A DNA stretch of 64,000 bases from an uncultured Gammaproteobacteria bacterium (GTDB lineage: Bacteria; Pseudomonadota; Gammaproteobacteria; Eutrophobiales; Eutrophobiaceae), in assembly GCA_958295485.1 (NCBI GenBank), contig OY282354.1, positions 806,001 to 870,000 of the forward strand. The letters run 5' to 3'. Shown here in pieces: positions 45,519 to 59,869 of the stretch. The position numbers and the translations under genes were made by a program. The first letter of the stretch is position 1; each line of letters starts with the position of its first letter. A model generated the notes under the pieces. The model saw nothing but the letters and a program-made list of their open reading frames with translations. It was not told where the DNA came from and ran no database searches.

Positions 45519-45531
45519 TCATATTTATTTA

Positions 45532-45590
45532 ATGAAAATGCTGCATATCTTTGGAAATGACAACGTAACGATTGTGGAAGTGAAGGTATG
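45532..45590 (+). other. Relic of a conserved upstream gene end (LHIFGNDNVTIVEVKV)
   Basis: The frame reads M-K-M then LHIFGNDNVTIVEVKV and stops with TGA overlapping the next ATG (GTATGA). A homologous piece (VDIFGNDAMTIVGVNV, same overlap) precedes the DarT-DarG gene at 49587. Both look like the last codons of the same lost gene family; no upstream part is present in either place. Confidence 0.6.
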
Positions 45591-45919: not shown

Positions 45920-45969
45920 TGAACCGCCCCGGGTTTGCCGGGGACTCCATTTCTTGAGAGGATGGAACA

Positions 45970-46281
45970 ATGAACAGACACAAACGCTATCCCCCGGAAG
46001 TCCGGGAACGAGCCGTGCGGCTGGTGCTGGAGCGCCAGGAGGACTATGACTCCCAATGGGCCGCACTTACTTCCATCGCCGATAAGATTGGCTGTACCGC
46101 GGAAACGTTGCGTAACTGGGTGAGACGCGCCGAGATTGACCAAGGTCAACGTGCCGGTCTCACCAGCGCTGAGCGTGACCAATTGCGGGAGTTGAAACGC
46201 GAGAATCGGGAACTGAAGCGGGCCAACGAGATTCTACGCAAAGCATCGGCTTTTTTCGCCCAGGCGGAGCGCGACCGCTAA
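45970..46281 (+). CDS. IS3-family transposase OrfA
   Basis: A 103-residue helix-turn-helix protein: [40 protein letters not shown], and the leucine-zipper-like [20 protein letters not shown], then FFAQAERDR. This is the typical OrfA of the IS3/IS407-type elements, with the zipper that pairs with OrfB. It has a ribosome site AGGAT before ATG 45970. Confidence 0.88.
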
Positions 46282-46624
<343 letters not shown>

Positions 46625-46673
46625 AGACGTTAGAATATGAACAGATGTACTATGATGATGAAAATAACCGGTC

Positions 46674-47369
46674 ATGCGAAGCGGCATGACACAAACTAAC
46701 GGGTCTCCGGAATTCCCGGGGCAGTTCAACACGTTTTTCGCTACAGAAAACTCAGAAGAGCTACTTAAAAGGGTCGCGGACTTGATCACTATCACAAGAG
46801 AAAATATTGTTGTTGACTTCTTTTCTGGTTCTGGCACTACTCAGTCTGTAGCTCAGAAGCTAGGGCGCAAGTGGCTTGGCGTAGAAATGGGAGCGCATTT
46901 TTACACTGTAATTTTGCCTCGCATGAAGAAGGTCATTGGTGGCCATCAATCTGGGATAAGCAAACAGATAGAATATAAGGGTGGTGGCGCGTTCAAATAT
47001 TACTCGCTGGAACAATACGAAGAAACCCTGAAAAACGCCTGCTACAATGAGGACGGCAAACATTTGAAGATAGACAGTGCCAAATCCCCATTCGAGCAGT
47101 ACGTCTTCTGCAACGACGACAAATTCGCCTACGCTGTTAAACCCTTAGAGAACGGCAAACTGGAAATCAATCTGCACAACCTCTATCCCGATATAGACAT
47201 CGCCGAATCGCTTTCAAACATTCTCGGCAAACCCATCCGCTGCCGCACTGCCGAGTCCGTCACCTTCGTCGACGGCACCACCGAAAAGATCAACCCCGCC
47301 AAAATGACTGAAGCGGAGAAACAACACTTCATCACAATTCTAAAACTCTATTTGTGGTGGGGAGAATAA
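46674..47369 (+). pseudogene. DNA methyltransferase C-terminal part (type III Mod-like), N-terminus lost
   Basis: The frame carries GQFNTFFATENSEELLKRVA, then the beta-class motif VVDFFSGSGTTQSVAQKLGR (F-x-G-x-G) and WLGVEMGAHFYTVILPRM, and a long C-terminal tail ending QHFITILKLYLWWGE. This matches the Mod subunit of type III restriction-modification or a related site-specific methyltransferase. The N-terminal half with the D/NPPY catalytic motif is absent, replaced by the IS fragment. The downstream gene starts by TAATG overlap. Confidence 0.7.
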
Positions 47370-49028: not shown

Positions 49029-49106
49029 GTTCCCGCCAAAATGACCGAAGTGAAAAAACAACACTTCATCGTAACTCTAAAATCCTATTTGTGGTGGGGA
49101 GAGTAG
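49029..49106 (+). pseudogene. Duplicate of the methyltransferase C-terminus
   Basis: VPAKMTEVKKQHFIVTLKSY plus LWWGE and TAG copies the last 25 codons of the Mod remnant (NPAKMTEAEKQHFITILKLY plus LWWGE). It is in frame with ATG 49023. The two copies flank the ImmA/DUF4411 pair. Confidence 0.8.
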
Positions 49107-49146: not shown

Positions 49147-49486
49147 ATGAACGGTAAAGAGCAAGTAATAAAGCACTTGGAAATAATCCAAGGAGTTATC
49201 AATCGCTTGGGGCATGACTATTTTGGCGGCCGGGGTTATTTTTATTGCTAGAAGCTAAATTCAATCGGCCTACATTGTTTTAACATTCATCATTCCTGTA
49301 ATCGGCTTTTGGATTCTGGATGGTTATTTTCTCTGGAAAGAGCGATCGTTTCGCAAAGTTTATAATGAGGTCAGAAAGCAGGAAACCGCAGATTTTGCAA
49401 TGGATGCTAATAAGCATAAAGACAAACAGAAGTGCGACTGGTTAGCTTCTATGTTCTCCAAAACGCTGAAGCTATTCTATGGGTGA
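49147..49486 (+). pseudogene. Small membrane protein gene with frameshifts
   Basis: The frame MNGKEQVIKHLEIIQGVINR (then stop) is continued in another frame by AYIVLTFIIPVIGFWILDGY and FLWKERSFRKVYNEVRKQE. Together they describe a short two-helix membrane protein with a basic tail, of a type common in defence islands. At least two frame changes lie between 49210 and 49260. The final stop is created by the IS-end TGA at 49484. Confidence 0.65.
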
Positions 49487-49515
49487 ACCGCCCCGGGTTT
49501 GCCGGAGACTCCATT
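49484..49515 (+). mobile_element. Solo IS3-type terminal repeat
   Basis: tgaaccgccccgggtttgcc plus ggagactccatt matches the left end of the IS at 45920 with one change. It is in the same orientation, so it is not the right end of that element. No transposase follows. Confidence 0.75.
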
Positions 49516-49526
49516 AAGGCTTATCA

Positions 49527-49589
49527 GGTGGAAAAAGTAGTGGACATCTTCGGTAACGACGCCATGACGATCGTGGGGGTGAATGTATG
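49527..49589 (+). other. Relic of a conserved upstream gene end (VDIFGNDAMTIVGVNV)
   Basis: VDIFGNDAMTIVGVNV and TGA, overlapping the ATG of the DarT-DarG gene by GTATGA. Homologous to 45541-45590 over roughly 60 nt. Confidence 0.6.
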
Positions 49590-50744
49590 AAACAGCCAAC
49601 AGAGCTATATTACATTTGCCATATTGATAACCTTGAATCCATTCTGGAAAAAGGCATATGTTCGCGCAAAGATGCTGAAAAACTTGATCATGAAGATATT
49701 CACGATCGAGAAGTATTAGCGCGACGCAATAAACAATTACCGAATAGTAAAAACGTATCCGAGTGTGTGAATTTATATTTTCATGCACGTAATGCCATGC
49801 TTTATCGATTGACTTGTAACATAGACAGGAAGAAATTAGTCGTTTTGCAAGTCTCTTCTTCCGTGCTTGATCAGGAGGATGTCTGTTTTAGTGATCGAAA
49901 CGTAGCCGCCTTTAATGCCCGATTTTTTTCTGGAACCACGGAACTGAAAAATATCGACGCTTCTGTTTTCAAAAAAGAATATTGGACAGATAGCGATGAT
50001 ACCAAGCAAAAAATGATGGCAGAAGTATTGGTTCCGGACAGGATATTGCCTGATAAGATTATTGGCATTTACTCCAGCATTAAAAACGACGCGCTTGCCG
50101 ACATCGTCGGAGACAAGCAGGTTCCGATTTCGGTAGAGCCTTATATGTTTTTTGCGCCTCAATATAGAAAATCTTTAAACAATACTATTTTCCTCTCCAA
50201 AGGCGACATGTTCTTTTCGACTATGCAAACATTTACTATTAGTGTAAACACCAGGGGTATCATGGGAAAAGGATTGGCTTCACGCACCAAGTATCAATTC
50301 CCCGATGCTTATGTTCGCTATCAAGACGATTGCAAAAACAAAAAACTGAAAATCGGCAAGCCAACCCTGTATAAGCGCGCCACCCGAATTGAGGAAGAGC
50401 TGGCTGATGATGCAGCACAACTCAAACAAGACAATTTGAATGGCTCGCGCTGGTTTTTATTTTTTCCGACAAAGCGACACTGGCGAGAAGATTCCAGACT
50501 TGATGACATAGAGAAATCTATGCAGTGGCTTGTGCAAAACTATAAAAAAGAAAACATAGAATCAATTGCCTTGCCGGCGTTGGGGTGCGGACTGGGGAAC
50601 CTGCATTGGAAGGATGTGGGACCTGTGATGTGCCACTACCTGAAACAAATGGACATAAAGTCATGTATTTATCTTCCCATGGATCAGCAATTGCCTGAAG
50701 ACCTCCTGTCTGAAAATTACTTATTAAATAGTTATGATGTTTAG
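49587..50744 (+). CDS. DarT-DarG fusion: DNA ADP-ribosyltransferase plus macrodomain
   Basis: A 385-residue protein. Residues 1 to about 195 match the DUF4433/DarT fold: YYICHIDNLESILEKGI (H12), HDREVLARRNKQLP (basic motif) and the catalytic glutamate E146 in MAEVLVP. DarT attaches ADP-ribose to thymidine bases in ssDNA. Residues about 205-385 are a macrodomain of DarG type: FTISVNTRGIMGKGLASRT, LFFPTKRHWREDSRLDDIEKS and SIALPALGCGLGNLHWKD (ADP-ribose site). DarG removes the modification and neutralises DarT. In the known darTG systems the two are separate, overlapping genes; here they are one frame with no stop. Both parts look intact. It sits at the edge of the defence island, next to recC. 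Confidence 0.85.
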   Translation: MKQPTELYYICHIDNLESILEKGICSRKDAEKLDHEDIHDREVLARRNKQLPNSKNVSECVNLYFHARNAMLYRLTCNIDRKKLVVLQVSSSVLDQEDVCFSDRNVAAFNARFFSGTTELKNIDASVFKKEYWTDSDDTKQKMMAEVLVPDRILPDKIIGIYSSIKNDALADIVGDKQVPISVEPYMFFAPQYRKSLNNTIFLSKGDMFFSTMQTFTISVNTRGIMGKGLASRTKYQFPDAYVRYQDDCKNKKLKIGKPTLYKRATRIEEELADDAAQLKQDNLNGSRWFLFFPTKRHWREDSRLDDIEKSMQWLVQNYKKENIESIALPALGCGLGNLHWKDVGPVMCHYLKQMDIKSCIYLPMDQQLPEDLLSENYLLNSYDV

Positions 50745-50865: not shown

Positions 50866-53800
50866 GTGCTTAACCTGTTCCAGTCGAACCGGATGCCTGT
50901 CCTGGCGAAGATCTTCTGTGTCAGGAACGATGAGCCGGGCGACCCCTTCACCCCTTTGTCCGTGATTATGCAGAACCGCGAGTTGGGGCAGTGGTTGAAG
51001 TTCAGCCTGGCACGGGAATACGGCATTTCCGCTAACGTGGATTGTTGTTTCCTGGCCGCTTTTTTTTGGGAGTTGTACAAACGATTGCCGGCGGTACAGG
51101 CGGTGGCGGAGGAGTCGCCCTTCGACAGCGCCCGCCTGGTCTGGCGCATCATGGCCCTGCTGCGGAAGGAAAAGATCGATGATCGGGCGTTACGCAACTA
51201 CCTGGATCAACCGGGGGACTCCAGCCTGCGGCATTACCAGCTGAGTTACGAAATCGCCGAGTTGTTCAACCAATACCTGATATACCGGCCTGAGTGGATG
51301 TTGCAATGGGAATCCGGCGGGGATGACCCCGCGCCGGCGCCGCTTCGATGGCAGCCGGAATTGTGGCGGGCGTTGTTGGCGGACATGGGGAAATACGGCG
51401 GACTGCACCGCGCCAGGCTTCACCGCATGTTGCTGGAACAACTGACGGCCGGCGAATATCCCGTGCAATCCCTGCCGCCGCGGATTTCTGTATTTGGCCT
51501 GTCCGCCATGCCGGCGATGCAACTCCAGACCCTGCAAGCGCTGGCCGGGCATATTGAAGTCGATATCTACTTCCTCAATCCCTGCCGTCATTACTGGGGG
51601 GACATCGCCTCCGACAAGGAGCAGGCCCGCCGCTCCATGCGCGCCCTGTTGGGCGGCAAGACCGAACTGGTCGACGATGACTACCTGGAAGCGGGCAACC
51701 CCATATTGGCTTCCCTGGGCAAGCAGGGGCGCGAGTATTTCGAGATGCTGCTGGATATGGATATGCCCCTGCTGCAAACCGCCGAGCAATTCCCGGAGCA
51801 CGAGGGGGCCACCGCCCTGGAGCGGGTAAAAAACGATGTCCTGGAATTGACTTTCGGCGGCGAATTCGGCAGCGGCGCGGTACCGGAACCCCGACCGCCG
51901 CCGGACGAGGACAGCCTGCAAATACACGCGTGTCACAGTCCACTCCGGGAAATCGAAGTCTTGCACGACGAGCTCCTGCGCCTCATGGCTAACCGGAAAG
52001 ACCTGTCTCCCGGAGAGATATTGGTCATGGCGCCGGACATTGCCGGGTATGCGCCGTTCATCCATTCGGTGTTCGGCGATGGCATCCCGTTCAGTATTGC
52101 CGACCGCGGCGTCATGGAAGAGTCGCCACTGATCAACGGTTTTCTTGCCCTGTTGAAGCTGCCGGAATCCCGTTTCACCGGCGCTGAAGTGGTGGATTTG
52201 CTGGATACCCCGGCCATTGCCAGGCGCTACGGGCTATCGGCGGAGGACCTCAGGCAGGTCACCCTGTGGATTCGGGATACGGGCGTGCGCTGGGAGTTGG
52301 GCGGCGCGGACAAGGAAAAATACTGGCAGGTTCCACCGGAAGGGCACAATACCTGGGAGTTCGGACTGGACCGGCTGTTGTCAGGCTTCGCCATGACGGA
52401 CGAAAACACCTGGGATGGCCTCTTGCCCTGCCCGGCAACGACGGAAGACGCCCGCCTGATCGCCAGCCTTTCCCACTTTGTCGAGTTGCTGGGTAAATAC
52501 CGGGACGAATTGTCGGAGCAACGCCCGCCGGCGGCTTGGCGGAAGTTGCTGTCCCGACTGGTGGCGGATTTTTTTCTGCCGGTAGATGAGGAAGCGCTGG
52601 AATTCGACTGTTTGCAGACGCTTATCAAGGAATTCGGCAACGCCACCCATGCCGGCGGCTGTGAGGAAAACCTTTCTTACGTACTGATGCGCCACTGGAC
52701 ACAGCAGCAGCTCAGGGGCGTCTTCACCCGGAACAGGTCTCCGTACGGCGTAGTCCAGTTCGCCAACCTGTCCGCCGTGCGCGGCATCCCCCGGCGGGTC
52801 ATCTGCCTGTTGGGTCTGAATGACGGCGAGTATCCCAGGGAAGAACGACCCCATTCCTTCGACTTGATGTCGCTCCGAAACAACGACTATCGCAAGGGAG
52901 ACCTGTCCGCACGGCAGGACGACCGTTACCTGTTTTTAGAATCCCTGCTGTCCGCCGAAGAAGTCTTCTACCTGAGCTACGTCGGGCGAGGGGTGCGGGA
53001 CAACCAGGAGAAACCGCCTTCAGTGGTGGTGACCGAGTGGTTGCATTACCTGCAAGCCTTGTTCGGCGAGGAAAACATCAAGCCGGTGGCGCATTCGCTT
53101 CAGCCTTTCAACCCCCGTTACTACCAGGGAGACCGGCTGCAATCCCGGCAGTCTCCCTGGTACGACGCCCTTGCAAATAAACCCGCGCAGTCGCCGGTTT
53201 TCTGCAGGGACCCTCTCCCGGCGGCGGCATGTGACTCCCTGGACCAGCTGGAAAGATTTTTCAGTCATAGCGGCAAGTATTTCTTGCAGCAAAGACTCAA
53301 GGTTTATTTCAATGTGGATGAAATCGAGCTAAAGGATACGGAGAGCTTTGCGCTGGATGCCCTCGAAGCCTATCAGTTGGCGGATGACGCCCTGGATCAT
53401 CTCATCCGGGGTGATTCCCTGGAAGCCTGGCGGGAAAGGCAGCTTGCCGCGGGCGTGGTCTTGCCGGGCGCCGCCGGCCGGGCGCAATCAGGCGTCCACA
53501 TCGACCGCGCCGAAGCCGTCCATGCCGCGCTGAAAGGGACTCTCGCCAAGGGCCGGCGACCCCCGCAAAGCGGCGTCATTGAGCTTGACGGCGCTGCCAT
53601 TCAATACCGGTTCGATGAGATTTACGGGGATACTCACCTGTTCTACCGGGTGGGCAGCCTCAGGCGCAAGGACCTGCTCATGGCTTGGTTGCGACACCTG
53701 GCGTTGAGCGCCACCGGCGGCGATTCGGTGGAGATGCGGATGGTTGGAAGAAAAGACAGCGGCGGTAAAACCGGGGCCGAAGTACGTTGTTTCGCCCCGC

Positions 53801-54195
53801 TGGATGCGGGATTATCCCGGCAATATCTTGGCGAGCTGCTAAAGCTGTATCGCCTCGGCACGGCGCGACCCCTGCTGTTGCCCCCCGAAACTTCATACGC
53901 CTACTACGAAAACTACGTTAAAACCGAAGCTGTCGGGAAAGCCGGGAGCGCTGACCCATCTTTCCCGGCTGAACAACACATTGAAACCGAGGCTGCCGGG
54001 AAAGCGAAGGAAGCGGCGGTCAACAAATGGAACTCATCGTATGGGGGCGCGCCGGAGGGTGATGACATCTACTGGGCCCGCCTGTTTTCCCTGCCTGAAG
54101 CGCTGGGTGGGAAAGAGCGGGCAGAGGAATTTCATGCCCATGCGATCAGACTGTGGCAACCCCTGTGTGAGCGTCTGGTGGAGAATGACGAGTGA
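50866..54195 (+). CDS. recC: RecC subunit of exodeoxyribonuclease V
   Basis: A 1109-residue RecC. Start GTG 50866 is taken from the family N-terminus (LNLFQSNRMPVLAKIF); no good ribosome site is visible. SVIMQNRELGQWLKFSLARE, PATFFWE-like and RVICLLGLNDGEYPREERPH, FDLMS are RecC-typical, as is the C-terminal end before recB. RecC holds the pieces of the RecBCD complex and recognises Chi. It overlaps recB by 4 bp. It follows the DarT-DarG gene by about 120 bp with no other gene. Confidence 0.92.
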   Translation: MLNLFQSNRMPVLAKIFCVRNDEPGDPFTPLSVIMQNRELGQWLKFSLAREYGISANVDCCFLAAFFWELYKRLPAVQAVAEESPFDSARLVWRIMALLRKEKIDDRALRNYLDQPGDSSLRHYQLSYEIAELFNQYLIYRPEWMLQWESGGDDPAPAPLRWQPELWRALLADMGKYGGLHRARLHRMLLEQLTAGEYPVQSLPPRISVFGLSAMPAMQLQTLQALAGHIEVDIYFLNPCRHYWGDIASDKEQARRSMRALLGGKTELVDDDYLEAGNPILASLGKQGREYFEMLLDMDMPLLQTAEQFPEHEGATALERVKNDVLELTFGGEFGSGAVPEPRPPPDEDSLQIHACHSPLREIEVLHDELLRLMANRKDLSPGEILVMAPDIAGYAPFIHSVFGDGIPFSIADRGVMEESPLINGFLALLKLPESRFTGAEVVDLLDTPAIARRYGLSAEDLRQVTLWIRDTGVRWELGGADKEKYWQVPPEGHNTWEFGLDRLLSGFAMTDENTWDGLLPCPATTEDARLIASLSHFVELLGKYRDELSEQRPPAAWRKLLSRLVADFFLPVDEEALEFDCLQTLIKEFGNATHAGGCEENLSYVLMRHWTQQQLRGVFTRNRSPYGVVQFANLSAVRGIPRRVICLLGLNDGEYPREERPHSFDLMSLRNNDYRKGDLSARQDDRYLFLESLLSAEEVFYLSYVGRGVRDNQEKPPSVVVTEWLHYLQALFGEENIKPVAHSLQPFNPRYYQGDRLQSRQSPWYDALANKPAQSPVFCRDPLPAAACDSLDQLERFFSHSGKYFLQQRLKVYFNVDEIELKDTESFALDALEAYQLADDALDHLIRGDSLEAWRERQLAAGVVLPGAAGRAQSGVHIDRAEAVHAALKGTLAKGRRPPQSGVIELDGAAIQYRFDEIYGDTHLFYRVGSLRRKDLLMAWLRHLALSATGGDSVEMRMVGRKDSGGKTGAEVRCFAPLDAGLSRQYLGELLKLYRLGTARPLLLPPETSYAYYENYVKTEAVGKAGSADPSFPAEQHIETEAAGKAKEAAVNKWNSSYGGAPEGDDIYWARLFSLPEALGGKERAEEFHAHAIRLWQPLCERLVENDE

Positions 54196-57100
54196 GCGAT
54201 CTTGATGCCATGCCCCTGAACTGCCACCAGCTTATCGAGGCCAGCGCGGGCACGGGAAAGACCCACACTATCACCAATTTATACCTCCGGTTGCTGCTGG
54301 GCCGCGCTACCGGGTTGCCTCCCCTTGCCGTCAATAAAATCCTGGTGTTGACCTTCACCAACGCGGCGGCGGATGAATTGAGACGCCGAATCAGAAACAG
54401 GATTCACCAGGCCCGGCTGATCTTTCGACAGGATACAGGCCCGGAAGACGATTTCCTGGCCAGGCTGGTGGGAGACAGTCTCGATAAGAACAAGGACGGA
54501 AAACTGCTTGAGGCAGCCAGCCGGTTGATGGATGAGGCCAGCATCTTCACCATCCATGGTTTCTGCTACAAGGTGCTGACCGAACAATCCTTCGACGCCG
54601 GCAGTCTGTTCCGGCAGGAACTGTACGATGACCGGGAACAATTATTCCGGCAAGCCTGCGCCGATTTTTTCCGCAGCCACCTGACGACGCTTCCTGAAAT
54701 CGAGAAGCAATTAGCCGGTAAACTCTGGTCGCGGCCTGAGGCGCTTGCCACCTGCCTGCGACCATACGTATACAGGAGAGAACTCAAACTGACCCCGGCC
54801 AGGGCCGTCGACGTTGAAGCCGTCAACCTGAAAAAAGACAGTGAGGCCCTGCTGGCGGATATCCGGGAAGCCAAGCGCGGCTGGGTCAAAGACGACATCG
54901 CCAGGTTGCTGGAATCCGCAGACCTGAAAAAAGGGAGTAAACCAATCACCCGGTTGCAACAAATGACCGACCTCTGCCAGGGCGATGACCTGGGGCTGGA
55001 TAGCGAACTGTGGGAAGTCTATAACAGGGACAGCCTGGAAAGAGCCAGGAAAAAGGATTGTGCCCTGCCTACTCACCCCCTGTTTAGCTTGCTCAACAGG
55101 ATCTGGTCGAAGCAGCCAATCATCGAAAAGCTCAGGGAAAACCTCTGGCACGTGGTCCTGGAGGAAGTAAGGGCAAGAATCCGAACCATCAAGGAACGCC
55201 GGCGCTTGTTGACCCTGGATGATTTGCTGTTGAATGTGCGTGACGCCATCCGGCGCTCAGGCTCTCCTTCGGAACCCTCTGCCTTGGCGGAACTGCTGGC
55301 GCAACGCTGGCCGGTCGCCATGATCGACGAGTTTCAGGACACGGACGATATCCAGTACGAAATCTTCTCCCGCATCTACCGGACCGATTTCCCCCACCCC
55401 GACTCTCCCCCAGGGGGCGAGGGGACAGCCCATGGGGCAAAGGATGAGGTAGGGGACAGGGCAAAGGATGAGGCAGGGGGCCGGGCAAAGGACGAGGCAG
55501 GGGGCTGGGCAAAGGACGATGCAGGGGACAGGGCAAAGGATGAGGCAGGGGACAGGGCAAAGGATGAGGCAGGGGACAGGGCAAAAGATGAGGCAGGGGG
55601 CCGGGTAAAGGACGATGCAGGGGGCGGGGCAAAAGGCGGCGACCGGGGGCTGCTGATGATAGGCGACCCCAAGCAAGCCATCTACCAGTTTCGCGGGGCC
55701 GATGTATATACCTACATCAAGGCAAGGCGCGCCGTCGATCGCATCCATTCACTGGAGAAAAACTGGCGTTCCACCCCGGCGCTGGTGGAAGCGGTCAATA
55801 CATTGTTTGATAAACAAGGCATGTTCAGCGTTGGCGAGGAGATTCCCTTTGCGCCCGTAGAGGCAGCCCACGCGGACCGGCAGGTGACTATCGACGGCGA
55901 AGAGGTCGCGCCCTTCGAGTTATTCGTTGTCGGCCACGCCGGTACAGGACTCGACAAGGATGCGGCGGGGGCCTCGACCCTGGCAGAGCCGTCGCCGGAA
56001 CCACCGCCGAAGCCGAGGGCGCTCAGCAAGGATGCGGCAAGGGCCTTGGCTATGGAGTATGCCGCCGAGCAGACGTCGCGGTTGCTCAACGCCGGGGATA
56101 AGGTGCGGCTTGGCGGCAAGGATGACAATGACAACTCCCTGAAAGCGGGTGAGATCGCTTTCCTTGTCAAGACCTGGAAGGATGCCGCCCAGGTGCACAA
56201 GGCCCTGGCCCGGCGCGGCATTCAGGGCGTGTATCTCACCCGTGAAAACGTCCTGCTACAGCCGACCGCGGACGATTTGATCCATATACTCCGGGCGGCG
56301 CTGGACCCTGCCGATGACCGGGCCGTTCGCGCCGCCCTGGCTACCCGCCTGCTGCAATGCGAGGCTGGGGAAATCGAAGCGCTGGGCCATGATCTCCGGA
56401 CCCGGCAGGCCGTGATCCGGGAATTTCAGGAATATCACGAGGCCTGGCGGGACCGGGGGATAGCGTTCATGTTGAATCGCCTGTTGCAAAAGCGGCGGCT
56501 GGCCGGGAAATGGCTGGGGCAAATGACCGGCGAACGGGAACTCACCGACTTCCGCCACCTGACGGAATTATTGCAACAGGGGGCGGGGCTTGCCCCGGGA
56601 ATGCGCCAGTTGCTGAGCTGGTTTATGAGGGAAAGACAGGTCGCCGGCAATATCGATGACGAGCAGCGGCAATTGCGGCTGGAAAGCGACGAAAACCTGG
56701 TGAAAATTGTCACCATGCACTCGGCGAAGGGGCTGGAATACGACGTGGTGATGATTCCCATGCCGGTGTTCAGCGTCCACAAGGTCGCTCCCAAGGGGCC
56801 GGCGCTTTATCACGACCCGGAGGAGAATTATCGGGCCTGTCTGGAAGTGGGCGCTGATCAGTCTCACTTGGCGCGCGCCGCAGAAGAGAAGATCGACGAG
56901 GAAATCCGCCTCCTTTACGTGGCGATGACCCGGGCGAGATACCGCTGTTATCTCGGCGTTCCCTTAATCCGGGGCCTGGAAAAAACCACCTTCGGGCGAC
57001 TGCTGGGCGCCTTTCCTGACTCCCCCCTCCCCATAAAAGAATTTGTCGAACAGCTGCGACTTCCCGCGGACTTGTTCAACATCGTTGACGGCGAGGTAGC

Positions 57101-58061
57101 GGACTGTACCCCTTATAAGCCTGAGGCCGGGGTGCAGGACCTGGTTCCGCCCCCGCCTGTCCCCCGAACAGACCAGCGTTGGCGGCTGCACAGCTACTCC
57201 AGCCTGTCAGCCCGGCCGCGGGACCTGGAGCGGAAAACCGCGAGCGATGCCATCGCTGGCTTTGCCGACGACGACCAGGGTCGGGGTGACGGCGACGGCA
57301 TCGGCGAAAGAGATGATTCGACGACTGCCGCGGCGGAGTTCTCCCGCTTCAGTTTCCCCCGTGGGGCGCACGTCGGGCTGGTCCTGCACAAGCTGCTGGA
57401 AGACCTTGACCGCGTGACGTCCCCGGAGGGCCATAGCCGGGACCGGGCCTGCAACTTCGCGCTGGACAAGTTGGGCCTGGGGCAAAACCGCGGGGAATGG
57501 GGCAGGGTGTTGACGGGCTGGCTGGACGACATCCTGAAGACGCCGCTTCACCCCGCCGCCACTTCCCTGGAGCGCATCGAGAGCCATGACCGCCTTAACG
57601 AGATGGAGTTTCATTTTCCGGTGAACAACCCCGCCTTCGTGGTTGACGGGCTGCGGGAGGCTGGCTACCTGGAAAGCCTTCAGCTCGACCCGGACTTTCA
57701 GCTGGTGGGCATGATGACCGGATTGATCGACCTGACGTTCCGTCACGATGGCAAGTATTATGTCCTGGACTACAAGTCCAACCACCTGGGAGACTCGTTC
57801 GGTGATTACGGCGAAGCGCAACTCCGGCAGGCGATTGCCAGGCATCACTACGATCTCCAGTACCTGATCTACAGCATGGCCTTGCACAAGTGGCTCAAGG
57901 CCCGTTCCCATGGCTATGATTACGAGCGGGACTTCGGCGGTGTCTTCTACCTGTTCCTGCGCGGCATGAGAGGCAGCGAAACAGGGGACACGGGCGTTTA
58001 TTTTCACAAGCCGCCACTGGCCGCCATCGAAAAATTAAGCGAATTGTCGGGGACGCCATGA
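54192..58061 (+). CDS. recB: RecB subunit of exodeoxyribonuclease V, with an insertion
   Basis: A 1289-residue RecB with GTG start overlapping the recC stop. Walker [13 protein letters not shown] (K23), motif [22 protein letters not shown] near residue 377, motif [23 protein letters not shown] near 488, [19 protein letters not shown] near 838, and the C-terminal nuclease motif [20 protein letters not shown] near 1178. This is the helicase plus nuclease chain of RecBCD that repairs double-strand breaks and degrades foreign DNA. Between motifs II and III, where E. coli RecB has about 10 residues, this protein carries about 85 extra residues (400-483), made of a palindromic block and an eightfold A-K-D-E-A-G-D-R repeat. 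Confidence 0.92.
55393..55640 (+). repeat. In-frame palindrome plus 24-bp tandem repeat inserted in recB
   Basis: Begins with the ctctcccccagggggcgagg block (S-P-P-G-G-E-G) and continues with about eight copies of gggcaaaggatgaggcaggg plus gaca, an exact 24-bp unit that codes for AKDEAGDR and variants. It ends at G-D-R-G-L-L-M before motif III. All copies are in frame. Confidence 0.92.
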
Positions 58062-59869
58062 ATACCGCCAACATCCCATCCATCGGTCACTACCTGGCTA
58101 ACCTGCTGGCCCGTCATGGTGACCCGATCAATGACGATGTTCGCCGTCTGCTGGATAAACTCTGTGACTCGGTCCTGCGCCAACATAGCTGTCTCGATCT
58201 CTCCGCAATGCCGGAAGAAACGGCGCGCCGGCTCAAGTCCCTCGCCTGCGTCGGCGACGGCGACGACAATACGCCGCTCGTGCTGTACGGCGAGCGCCTG
58301 TACCTGCAACGCTACTTTGCCTGGGAAAAAAGCGTGGCCGCCATGCTGTCGGAACGGAACCGCCCGCAAGCCTGTGACCACCCGGAACGACTGGGGGAAG
58401 AATTAGACCTGCTGTTCCCGCCGGGGAGTGAAAGGAACGCCGCCGCGCGTCACCAGGTGGAGACCCCCTCTCCCCCGGAGGGAGAGGGACAGGGCGGTGG
58501 AAACGGCATCGACTGGCAGCGGGTCGCGGCCCTGCAAGCCCTCACCCGGCGACTGCTCATCATTACCGGGGGGCCGGGCACCGGCAAGACCCGAACCGTC
58601 GTGAAGATCATCGCCCTGTTGTTGGCGCTCTCGGCCCATGAACCCGTTATCCGCCTCGCCGCGCCCACCGGCAAGGCCGCCATGCGGTTGAAGGATTCCA
58701 TACGGGAAGGAATATCAGACCTGCCGAAATCTTTTTCGGCGCTTGCCGACCAGGTATCCACCCTGCACCGCCTGCTGGGGATGCGGTCCGACGGCAGAAG
58801 CTGGCGTCATGACGCCGACAACCCCATTGACGCGGATGTGCTGATTGTCGATGAGGCGTCCATGATCGACCTGCCCCTGGCTCACCGGACGCTTAGCGCC
58901 TTGCCCCCGGACTCCAGGCTCATCCTGCTGGGTGACGCCGACCAACTGCCATCGGTTGACGTAGGCAACGTGCTGGCCGACCTTTGCAGCGGGACCATTG
59001 GTTATTCAGGGGAATTCGTCGAATTCGCCCGTAAATTTGTGCACGGCGACCTGCCTGTCGTGGAAAACAAACACAAGCTAATGGACGCGGTGTGCCGTTT
59101 TGAGCGCAACTACCGCTTCGCGCCTGACAGCGGCATCGGTCGTCTCGCGCGGGAAATCAGGGCGGGGACGGCATCTTTCGAGGTATCTTCCGGGCCGGAC
59201 GATGCCAGCGTGCGTTACCTGGATTTGGCCGGTCTGCGGGCCGGGAACCCGGCGGAACGACTCATCGCTTTTTTTGACGACTATATCCGATTGCTTGAGA
59301 CGGACGAAAAGCCCGATGTCCCGGAATTGCTGAAAGTGTTCGGGCAGACCCGCATTCTCTGCGCCCGCCGGGAAGGATTCGCTGGCGTTATCAACGTCAA
59401 CCGGGTGCTGGAGGCAATCCTTGAGCAACGAGGCTTGAAGCGGCAGGGACAGGACTTCTATACCGGCCGGCCCGTCATGATCACCCGCAACGACTATAAC
59501 CTGGAGTTGTTCAACGGCGACATAGGGATTTGCGTACCCGGAACAGACGGCGGGTTTCTGGTCGCCTTCCCGGACGCGCGGGGAGGCATCAAATACGAGC
59601 TCGCCCTGCGCCTGGCTCACCAGGAGACCTGTTTCGCCATGACCGTCCACAAGTCCCAGGGTTCCGAGTTCGACCACCTGGTATTGCTGCTGGACGAATC
59701 CCCGGAATCCTTCCCGGAACAACTGCAAACGCGGGCGCTGCTTTACACGGCGGCCACCCGCGCCAAAAACCGGATCACCATCTACGGCAACGGTGACATC
59801 TGGCGGCGGGCGCTGGAAAACACCAGCGCCCGCATGAGCGGACTGCAAACCTTCGTTAAAAGCAACTGA
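58058..59869 (+). CDS. recD: RecD subunit of exodeoxyribonuclease V
   Basis: A 603-residue SF1B helicase. ATG 58058 overlaps the recB stop. Walker A ITGGPGTGKTRTVVKI near residues 168-183, IVDEASMIDLPLAH near 263, LILLGDADQLPSVDVGNVLA near 288, and the terminal MTVHKSQGSEFDHLVLLL and YTAATRAKNRITIYG motifs are complete. An extra block of about 17 residues (ETPSPPEGEGQGGGNG near 135-150) arises from a palindromic insertion. It completes the recC-recB-recD operon. RecD drives the fast 5' to 3' strand. Confidence 0.92.
   Translation: MNTANIPSIGHYLANLLARHGDPINDDVRRLLDKLCDSVLRQHSCLDLSAMPEETARRLKSLACVGDGDDNTPLVLYGERLYLQRYFAWEKSVAAMLSERNRPQACDHPERLGEELDLLFPPGSERNAAARHQVETPSPPEGEGQGGGNGIDWQRVAALQALTRRLLIITGGPGTGKTRTVVKIIALLLALSAHEPVIRLAAPTGKAAMRLKDSIREGISDLPKSFSALADQVSTLHRLLGMRSDGRSWRHDADNPIDADVLIVDEASMIDLPLAHRTLSALPPDSRLILLGDADQLPSVDVGNVLADLCSGTIGYSGEFVEFARKFVHGDLPVVENKHKLMDAVCRFERNYRFAPDSGIGRLAREIRAGTASFEVSSGPDDASVRYLDLAGLRAGNPAERLIAFFDDYIRLLETDEKPDVPELLKVFGQTRILCARREGFAGVINVNRVLEAILEQRGLKRQGQDFYTGRPVMITRNDYNLELFNGDIGICVPGTDGGFLVAFPDARGGIKYELALRLAHQETCFAMTVHKSQGSEFDHLVLLLDESPESFPEQLQTRALLYTAATRAKNRITIYGNGDIWRRALENTSARMSGLQTFVKSN
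58466..58488. repeat. In-frame CCCTCTCCC/GGGAGAGGG palindrome in recD
   Basis: ccctctcccccggagggaga followed by ggg, a near-perfect dyad, encodes P-S-P-P-E-G-E-G. It is the third occurrence of the in-gene palindrome (with liuD and recB). Confidence 0.85.

Follow-up and report, generated by a model that had tools for sequence, protein, structure and literature searches.

A fused DarT-DarG gene of an uncultured gammaproteobacterium as a further member of a rare, already known DarTG type

The window, a 64,000-nucleotide stretch of DNA from an uncultured gammaproteobacterium, carries a darTG gene in which the toxin and antitoxin parts are joined in a single polypeptide. It is preceded by the C-terminal part of a type III methyltransferase gene and by genes for an HTH/M78-protease protein and a DUF4411 protein, and followed by recC, recB and recD (window 50866-59869). 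A scan for promoters and terminators up- and downstream of darTG gave no excess over chance. The gene and its two halves are located as follows:

49587..50744, plus strand: fused darTG gene, 385 aa, one open reading frame (ORF) without a break, with a full-length homologue in PDB entry 7OMU (E=2.5e-105)
49587..50183, plus strand: DarT half, residues 1-199, single-stranded DNA ADP-ribosyltransferase domain with R46 and E146 intact (PF14487, E=4.1e-39; alignment to Thermus DarT)
50184..50744, plus strand: DarG macrodomain half, residues 200-385, with K296 and without the DarT-binding C-terminal domain of DarG (PADLOC DarG; NF048014)

An earlier, sequence-only reading of this locus had proposed that DarT and DarG are fused in one 385-residue frame. 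This was confirmed by an ORF of 385 codons with neither an internal stop nor a frameshift, and by domain searches that recovered both parts. In Pfam, the DarT domain PF14487 spans residues 8-189 (134.8 bits, cut-off 22.5) and the Macro domain PF01661 spans residues 220-347 (E=1.9e-11, 44.3 bits, cut-off 22), while PADLOC assigns residues 3-189 to DarT and residues 201-368 to DarG (E=4.7e-46). The latter match covers just positions 2-149 of the 329 positions of the PADLOC DarG model, and the NCBIfam DarG model is matched to about position 156 of 338, unlike the split DarG of a two-gene system, L011, which scores 288 bits over the full length of that model. Since the DarG models are matched over their N-terminal part alone, the antitoxin half is a bare macrodomain. 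The NCBIfam whole-protein models give 102.4 bits for DarT (cut-off 150) and 147.7 bits for DarG NF048014 (cut-off 250). The fused arrangement is real, and the gene looks functional.

The expectation that the key residues are in place was also upheld, with no essential loss in alignments to characterised DarT and DarG. When aligned to solved chains, E146 corresponds to E160 of Thermus DarT (the chain 7omv has Ala there), R46 to R51 of the same protein, and K296, located in the motif FPTKRHW, to K80 of Thermus DarG and K84 of TARG1. R51 is reportedly the active-site arginine of Thermus DarT, a finding ascribed to Schuller and coauthors in 2021. The catalytic Glu and Lys are also retained in the native fused relatives. 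Thermus DarT E160 and DarG K80 are the residues with an experimental test (PMC5179494, PMC7003065, PMC8501950). By its DarT domain with aligned catalytic Glu and active-site Arg the N-terminal half is a DarT, and by its macrodomain with aligned catalytic Lys the C-terminal half is a DarG/TARG1-like macrodomain. The protein is not a canonical DarTG2, as both parts are encoded by one 385-aa ORF, a genome search found no other DarT in the window's genome, and the chain ends shortly past the macrodomain, leaving no sequestering DarG C-terminal domain. By its single chain, its domain arrangement and the lack of that domain it belongs to the fused DarTG of the 7OMU type.

This entry, titled "Thermosipho africanus DarTG in complex with ADP-ribose" and released on 2021-06-23, is presumably the structure from Schuller et al., Nature 2021. 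It is a 406-residue single chain, aligned over residues 5-382 in the phmmer search against the PDB. An AlphaFold2 model of the window protein (pLDDT 91.2, pTM 0.86) has 7OMU as its best Foldseek match (TM 0.90/0.92, rmsd 2.0 A, 385 columns, 44% identity), and each of the subsequent matches covers one domain only. Because the match spans 385 columns, the model and 7OMU agree in interdomain arrangement as well as in fold. Both proteins are one polypeptide with DarT followed by the macrodomain, with the same lengths, and both lack the C-terminal domain and contain an insertion specific to the fused clade. They differ in phylum and in the catalytic position, where the 7OMU chain has Ala and the window protein has E146. 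This Ala probably represents an engineered inactive mutant, and with it the crystal is no proof of activity for DarT in the native fusion. As a fused DarTG was crystallised already in 2021, the architecture is known and its novelty is not supported. The window gene adds one more member to this known but rare type, and the discovery value of the locus is modest for the same reason.

Canonical two-gene DarTG2 (Thermus, M. tuberculosis, EPEC) has homologous domains with R51/E160 and K80 conserved, whereas the window has one gene and no DarT-sequestering DarG C-terminal domain. DarTG1 (DarT-NADAR) also pairs an ART toxin of the DarT type with a protein that reverses its action, but this partner is a NADAR acting on guanosine instead of a macrodomain, and the match of the window DarT half to DarT1 (8baq, E=1.3e-05) is far weaker than that to 7OMU.

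Relatives were searched initially with short exact patterns against 84,980 genomes, which gave two fused proteins, L009 (62% identity) and L010 (48%), and the split system L011. In the gammaproteobacterial order of L010, fused genes are present in four of 83 genomes (L009, L010, L046 and L047), each as an unbroken ORF of 379-398 aa. The window's genome is the only one of 53 in its own family to have the fused form, and a congener carries a split DarTG (L048) adjoining a type I specificity gene (hsdS, named by eye). The view that DarT and DarG are usually separate agrees with these data: all split systems examined consist of two ORFs and their DarG is longer, in most of them about 320-400 aa, and the full-length relatives in the phylum sample and in the phylum of L011 are either split or interrupted by a stop between the two domains. 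A sequencing frameshift or a chance fusion was rejected, as the five other unbroken fused proteins (L009, L010, L046, L047 and 7OMU) make such an artefact very unlikely. Elsewhere in the window's genome (L061, G000:C1 near 513 kb) we observed a second DarG-like macrodomain fragment without the catalytic-lysine part, apparently the remnant of an older split DarTG.

Viral contigs gave no match to the fused protein. Among the matches listed or inspected, the fused form was not found in plasmid records, where the matches covering most of the query were two-gene systems, or in phage records, where the sole full-length match was two ORFs; both sets of records contained split or macrodomain-only relatives alone. 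A phage origin of the fusion was rejected on these grounds. Our search of the open literature found no statement of a naturally fused DarTG, a weak negative, with key papers lying outside the search. In L010, L046 and L047, all from one gammaproteobacterial order, the fused darTG is located directly upstream of yebC, and nadA directly precedes darTG in two of these three genomes. The yebC-adjoining location is a settled chromosomal position and not a defence island, and could point to a housekeeping role.

Separate trees were built for the DarT halves and the macrodomain halves, including six fused sequences (window, L009, L010, L046, L047 and 7OMU). The fused sequences fall on one side of a branch in both trees, with support of 89/96 for DarT and 100/99 for the macrodomain, under small sampling and with a long-branch warning on the macrodomain tree. 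The internal groupings are also identical: the window protein pairs with L009, while L010 groups with L046 and L047. A single clade with the same pairs in both trees argues for one fusion followed by joint inheritance and horizontal transfer, also between phyla. Thus, to judge from these sequences, the fused proteins most likely descend from a single fusion event, with subsequent horizontal transfer.

All fused proteins lack the DarG C-terminal domain that binds DarT, and they have in common an additional segment in the macrodomain:

50382..50444, plus strand: fused-clade insertion, about 14-20 aa, residues ~266-286, RIEEELADDAAQLKQDNLNG (alignment of fused and split rows)

The insertion is present in six of six fused rows of the alignment and in no split DarG row. 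Located just past the macrodomain's YKR strand and beside the catalytic strand, it is modelled by AlphaFold2 with lower confidence (pLDDT 59-79). Both halves of the gene appear to be under purifying selection, as dN is far below dS in comparisons of L010, L046 and L047. For the DarT halves dN is about 0.12-0.19 against dS of about 0.9-2.1 where computable, a range near saturation that makes the dN/dS ratio rough, and for the macrodomain halves dN is lower (0.07-0.09).

The place of darTG next to recBCD had been considered notable in the sequence-only reading, a point that found no support in the comparison. None of the fused relatives L009, L010, L046 and L047 lies beside recBCD where the locus is readable. 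RecC (PF04257) is found in the window's genome alone among the 53 of its family, and together with the GC content of recBCD (0.60-0.62, against 0.54 for the window) this suggests that recBCD was acquired horizontally. The GC content of darTG is 0.407, and its side of the locus looks like a low-GC defence patch next to the GC-rich recBCD. Given the GC gap, the uniqueness of RecC and the lack of conservation, the adjacency looks like the result of two separate acquisitions in a variable region. A functional link between darTG and recBCD was rejected for the same reasons, with GC of 0.41 set against 0.60.

DarG of ordinary DarTG2 acts in two ways: its macrodomain takes the tag off DNA and its C-terminal domain sequesters DarT (PMC7003065), the latter by mimicry of single-stranded DNA as summarised in PMC11481870. 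In EPEC, the DarG macrodomain alone removes the tag and stops DarT toxicity, and either DarG part suffices (PMC7003065), which makes an antitoxin consisting of the eraser only workable. The sequence-only reading had assumed that a fused protein is silenced in cis and hence needs activation, an assumption that is not supported, as none of the fused proteins has the sequestering domain. It cannot be presumed that sequestration silences them, and the certain remainder of the antitoxin is the eraser. The interpretation given in that reading is supported in part.

The combined observations are best explained, and we consider this likely, by a horizontally acquired fused DarTG of the 7OMU type, in which a writer of DNA ADP-ribosylation is tethered to an eraser and controlled by erasure. 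The protein is probably a self-limiting writer-eraser of DNA ADP-ribosylation with a defensive role, for which we infer both activities, the thymidine specificity, the trigger and the part in defence. With NAD+ as donor, the DarT half at the N-terminus would place ADP-ribose on a thymidine base of single-stranded DNA; the DarG macrodomain, tethered at the C-terminus, would hydrolyse this thymidine-linked ADP-ribose. Since both are on one chain, writer and eraser are always made 1:1, and since the clamping C-terminal domain is missing, control of DarT is probably exerted by the erasing activity of the tethered macrodomain, perhaps with partial masking of the DarT cleft by rigid packing of the two domains. 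Net DNA ADP-ribosylation would appear solely when writing outruns erasing, possibly when replicating phage or stalled forks expose much single-stranded DNA, or when ADP-ribose or a phage factor blocks the macrodomain. Activation by degradation of a labile antitoxin would be impossible unless the chain is cut.

A more far-reaching proposal, which we advance tentatively and rate below an even chance by a wide distance, is that the fused clade is a writer-eraser switch and not a usual toxin-antitoxin system. It would have lost the sequestering domain and gained the insertion beside the eraser active site, with an output set by NAD+/ADP-ribose and exposed single-stranded DNA, and would combine in one protein the sensor and the effector for phage replication or stalled forks.

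In line with the candidate phage sensor of the sequence-only reading, and by analogy with CapRel, the protein might instead be a closed and silent two-domain phage sensor, which would open when a phage protein acts on it or when proteolysis cuts the domains apart. Activation of fused toxin-antitoxins by direct binding of a phage protein is known, as discussed in PMC11481870, split DarTG defends against phage (PMC11481870), darTG shares its patch with other genes of a defence type, and the predicted rigid domain arrangement is common to 7OMU. CapRel is comparable in its working alone, with toxin and antitoxin on one chain; its domains are unrelated, and the phage trigger has been shown for CapRel-type fusions (cited in PMC11481870), not for DarTG fusions. 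However, the protein lacks the domain that is known to occlude DarT, and beyond the two enzymes it has no obvious variable region for sensing; no phage-linked or plasmid copy of the fused form was seen among the matches listed or inspected. We regard this explanation as unlikely.

Similarly improbable, in our estimate, is a self-limiting regulator of replication or repair that is not a toxin-antitoxin system and signals through short-lived ADP-ribosylation of DNA where single strands are exposed. With both parts in equal dosage on the same chain, the differential-stability logic of addiction modules no longer applies, the same yebC-adjoining place in three genomes of one order resembles that of a settled chromosomal gene, and split DarTG of M. 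tuberculosis is described as regulating replication and gene expression in PMC12170906 and PMC8883491; yet the patchy distribution, in the four genomes of L010's order and the one of the window's family, is unlike that of an ordinary housekeeping function. Finally, a decayed or misassembled DarTG, fused via a frameshift or loss of a stop codon and becoming a pseudogene, might be suggested by split operons with the halves nearly in frame and a single stop between them (L002/L048) and by the IS remnants and repeated methyltransferase tail around darTG, but it is highly improbable and for practical purposes refuted by a conserved fused family of six independent unbroken sequences, one of them a solved structure, with a common insertion, a single clade, purifying selection and catalytic residues kept in the native sequences.

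Under the preferred reading, that of a fused DarTG controlled by erasure, the protein separates erasure from sequestration. One protein that writes and erases a DNA lesion without a sequestering domain would provide a clean test of DarTG control, and, should the wild-type fusion prove active, a one-gene model of triggered DNA ADP-ribosylation that limits itself.

Several traces of rearrangement were observed upstream of darTG. An IS3-like element with truncated transposase frames occupies window 45920-46722, and a copy of its end lies close to the gene:

49484..49515, plus strand: 32-nt copy of an IS end, 71 nt upstream of darTG, matching the left end of the IS at 45920 with 97% identity

The tail of the type III methyltransferase gene is present as a 74-nt direct repeat (86%) at 47295-47368 and 49032-49105, flanking the HTH/M78-protease and DUF4411 gene pair as if this pair had been inserted after a duplicated tail. 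In window 49512-49590, the ATG of darTG overlaps with the stop codon of a remnant frame whose end reads VVDIFGNDAMTIVGVNV, and a similar tail, HIFGNDNVTIVEVKV, in window 45531-45590 precedes the gene at 45588, a hint that darTG and this gene each used to be coupled to a copy of one and the same upstream gene.
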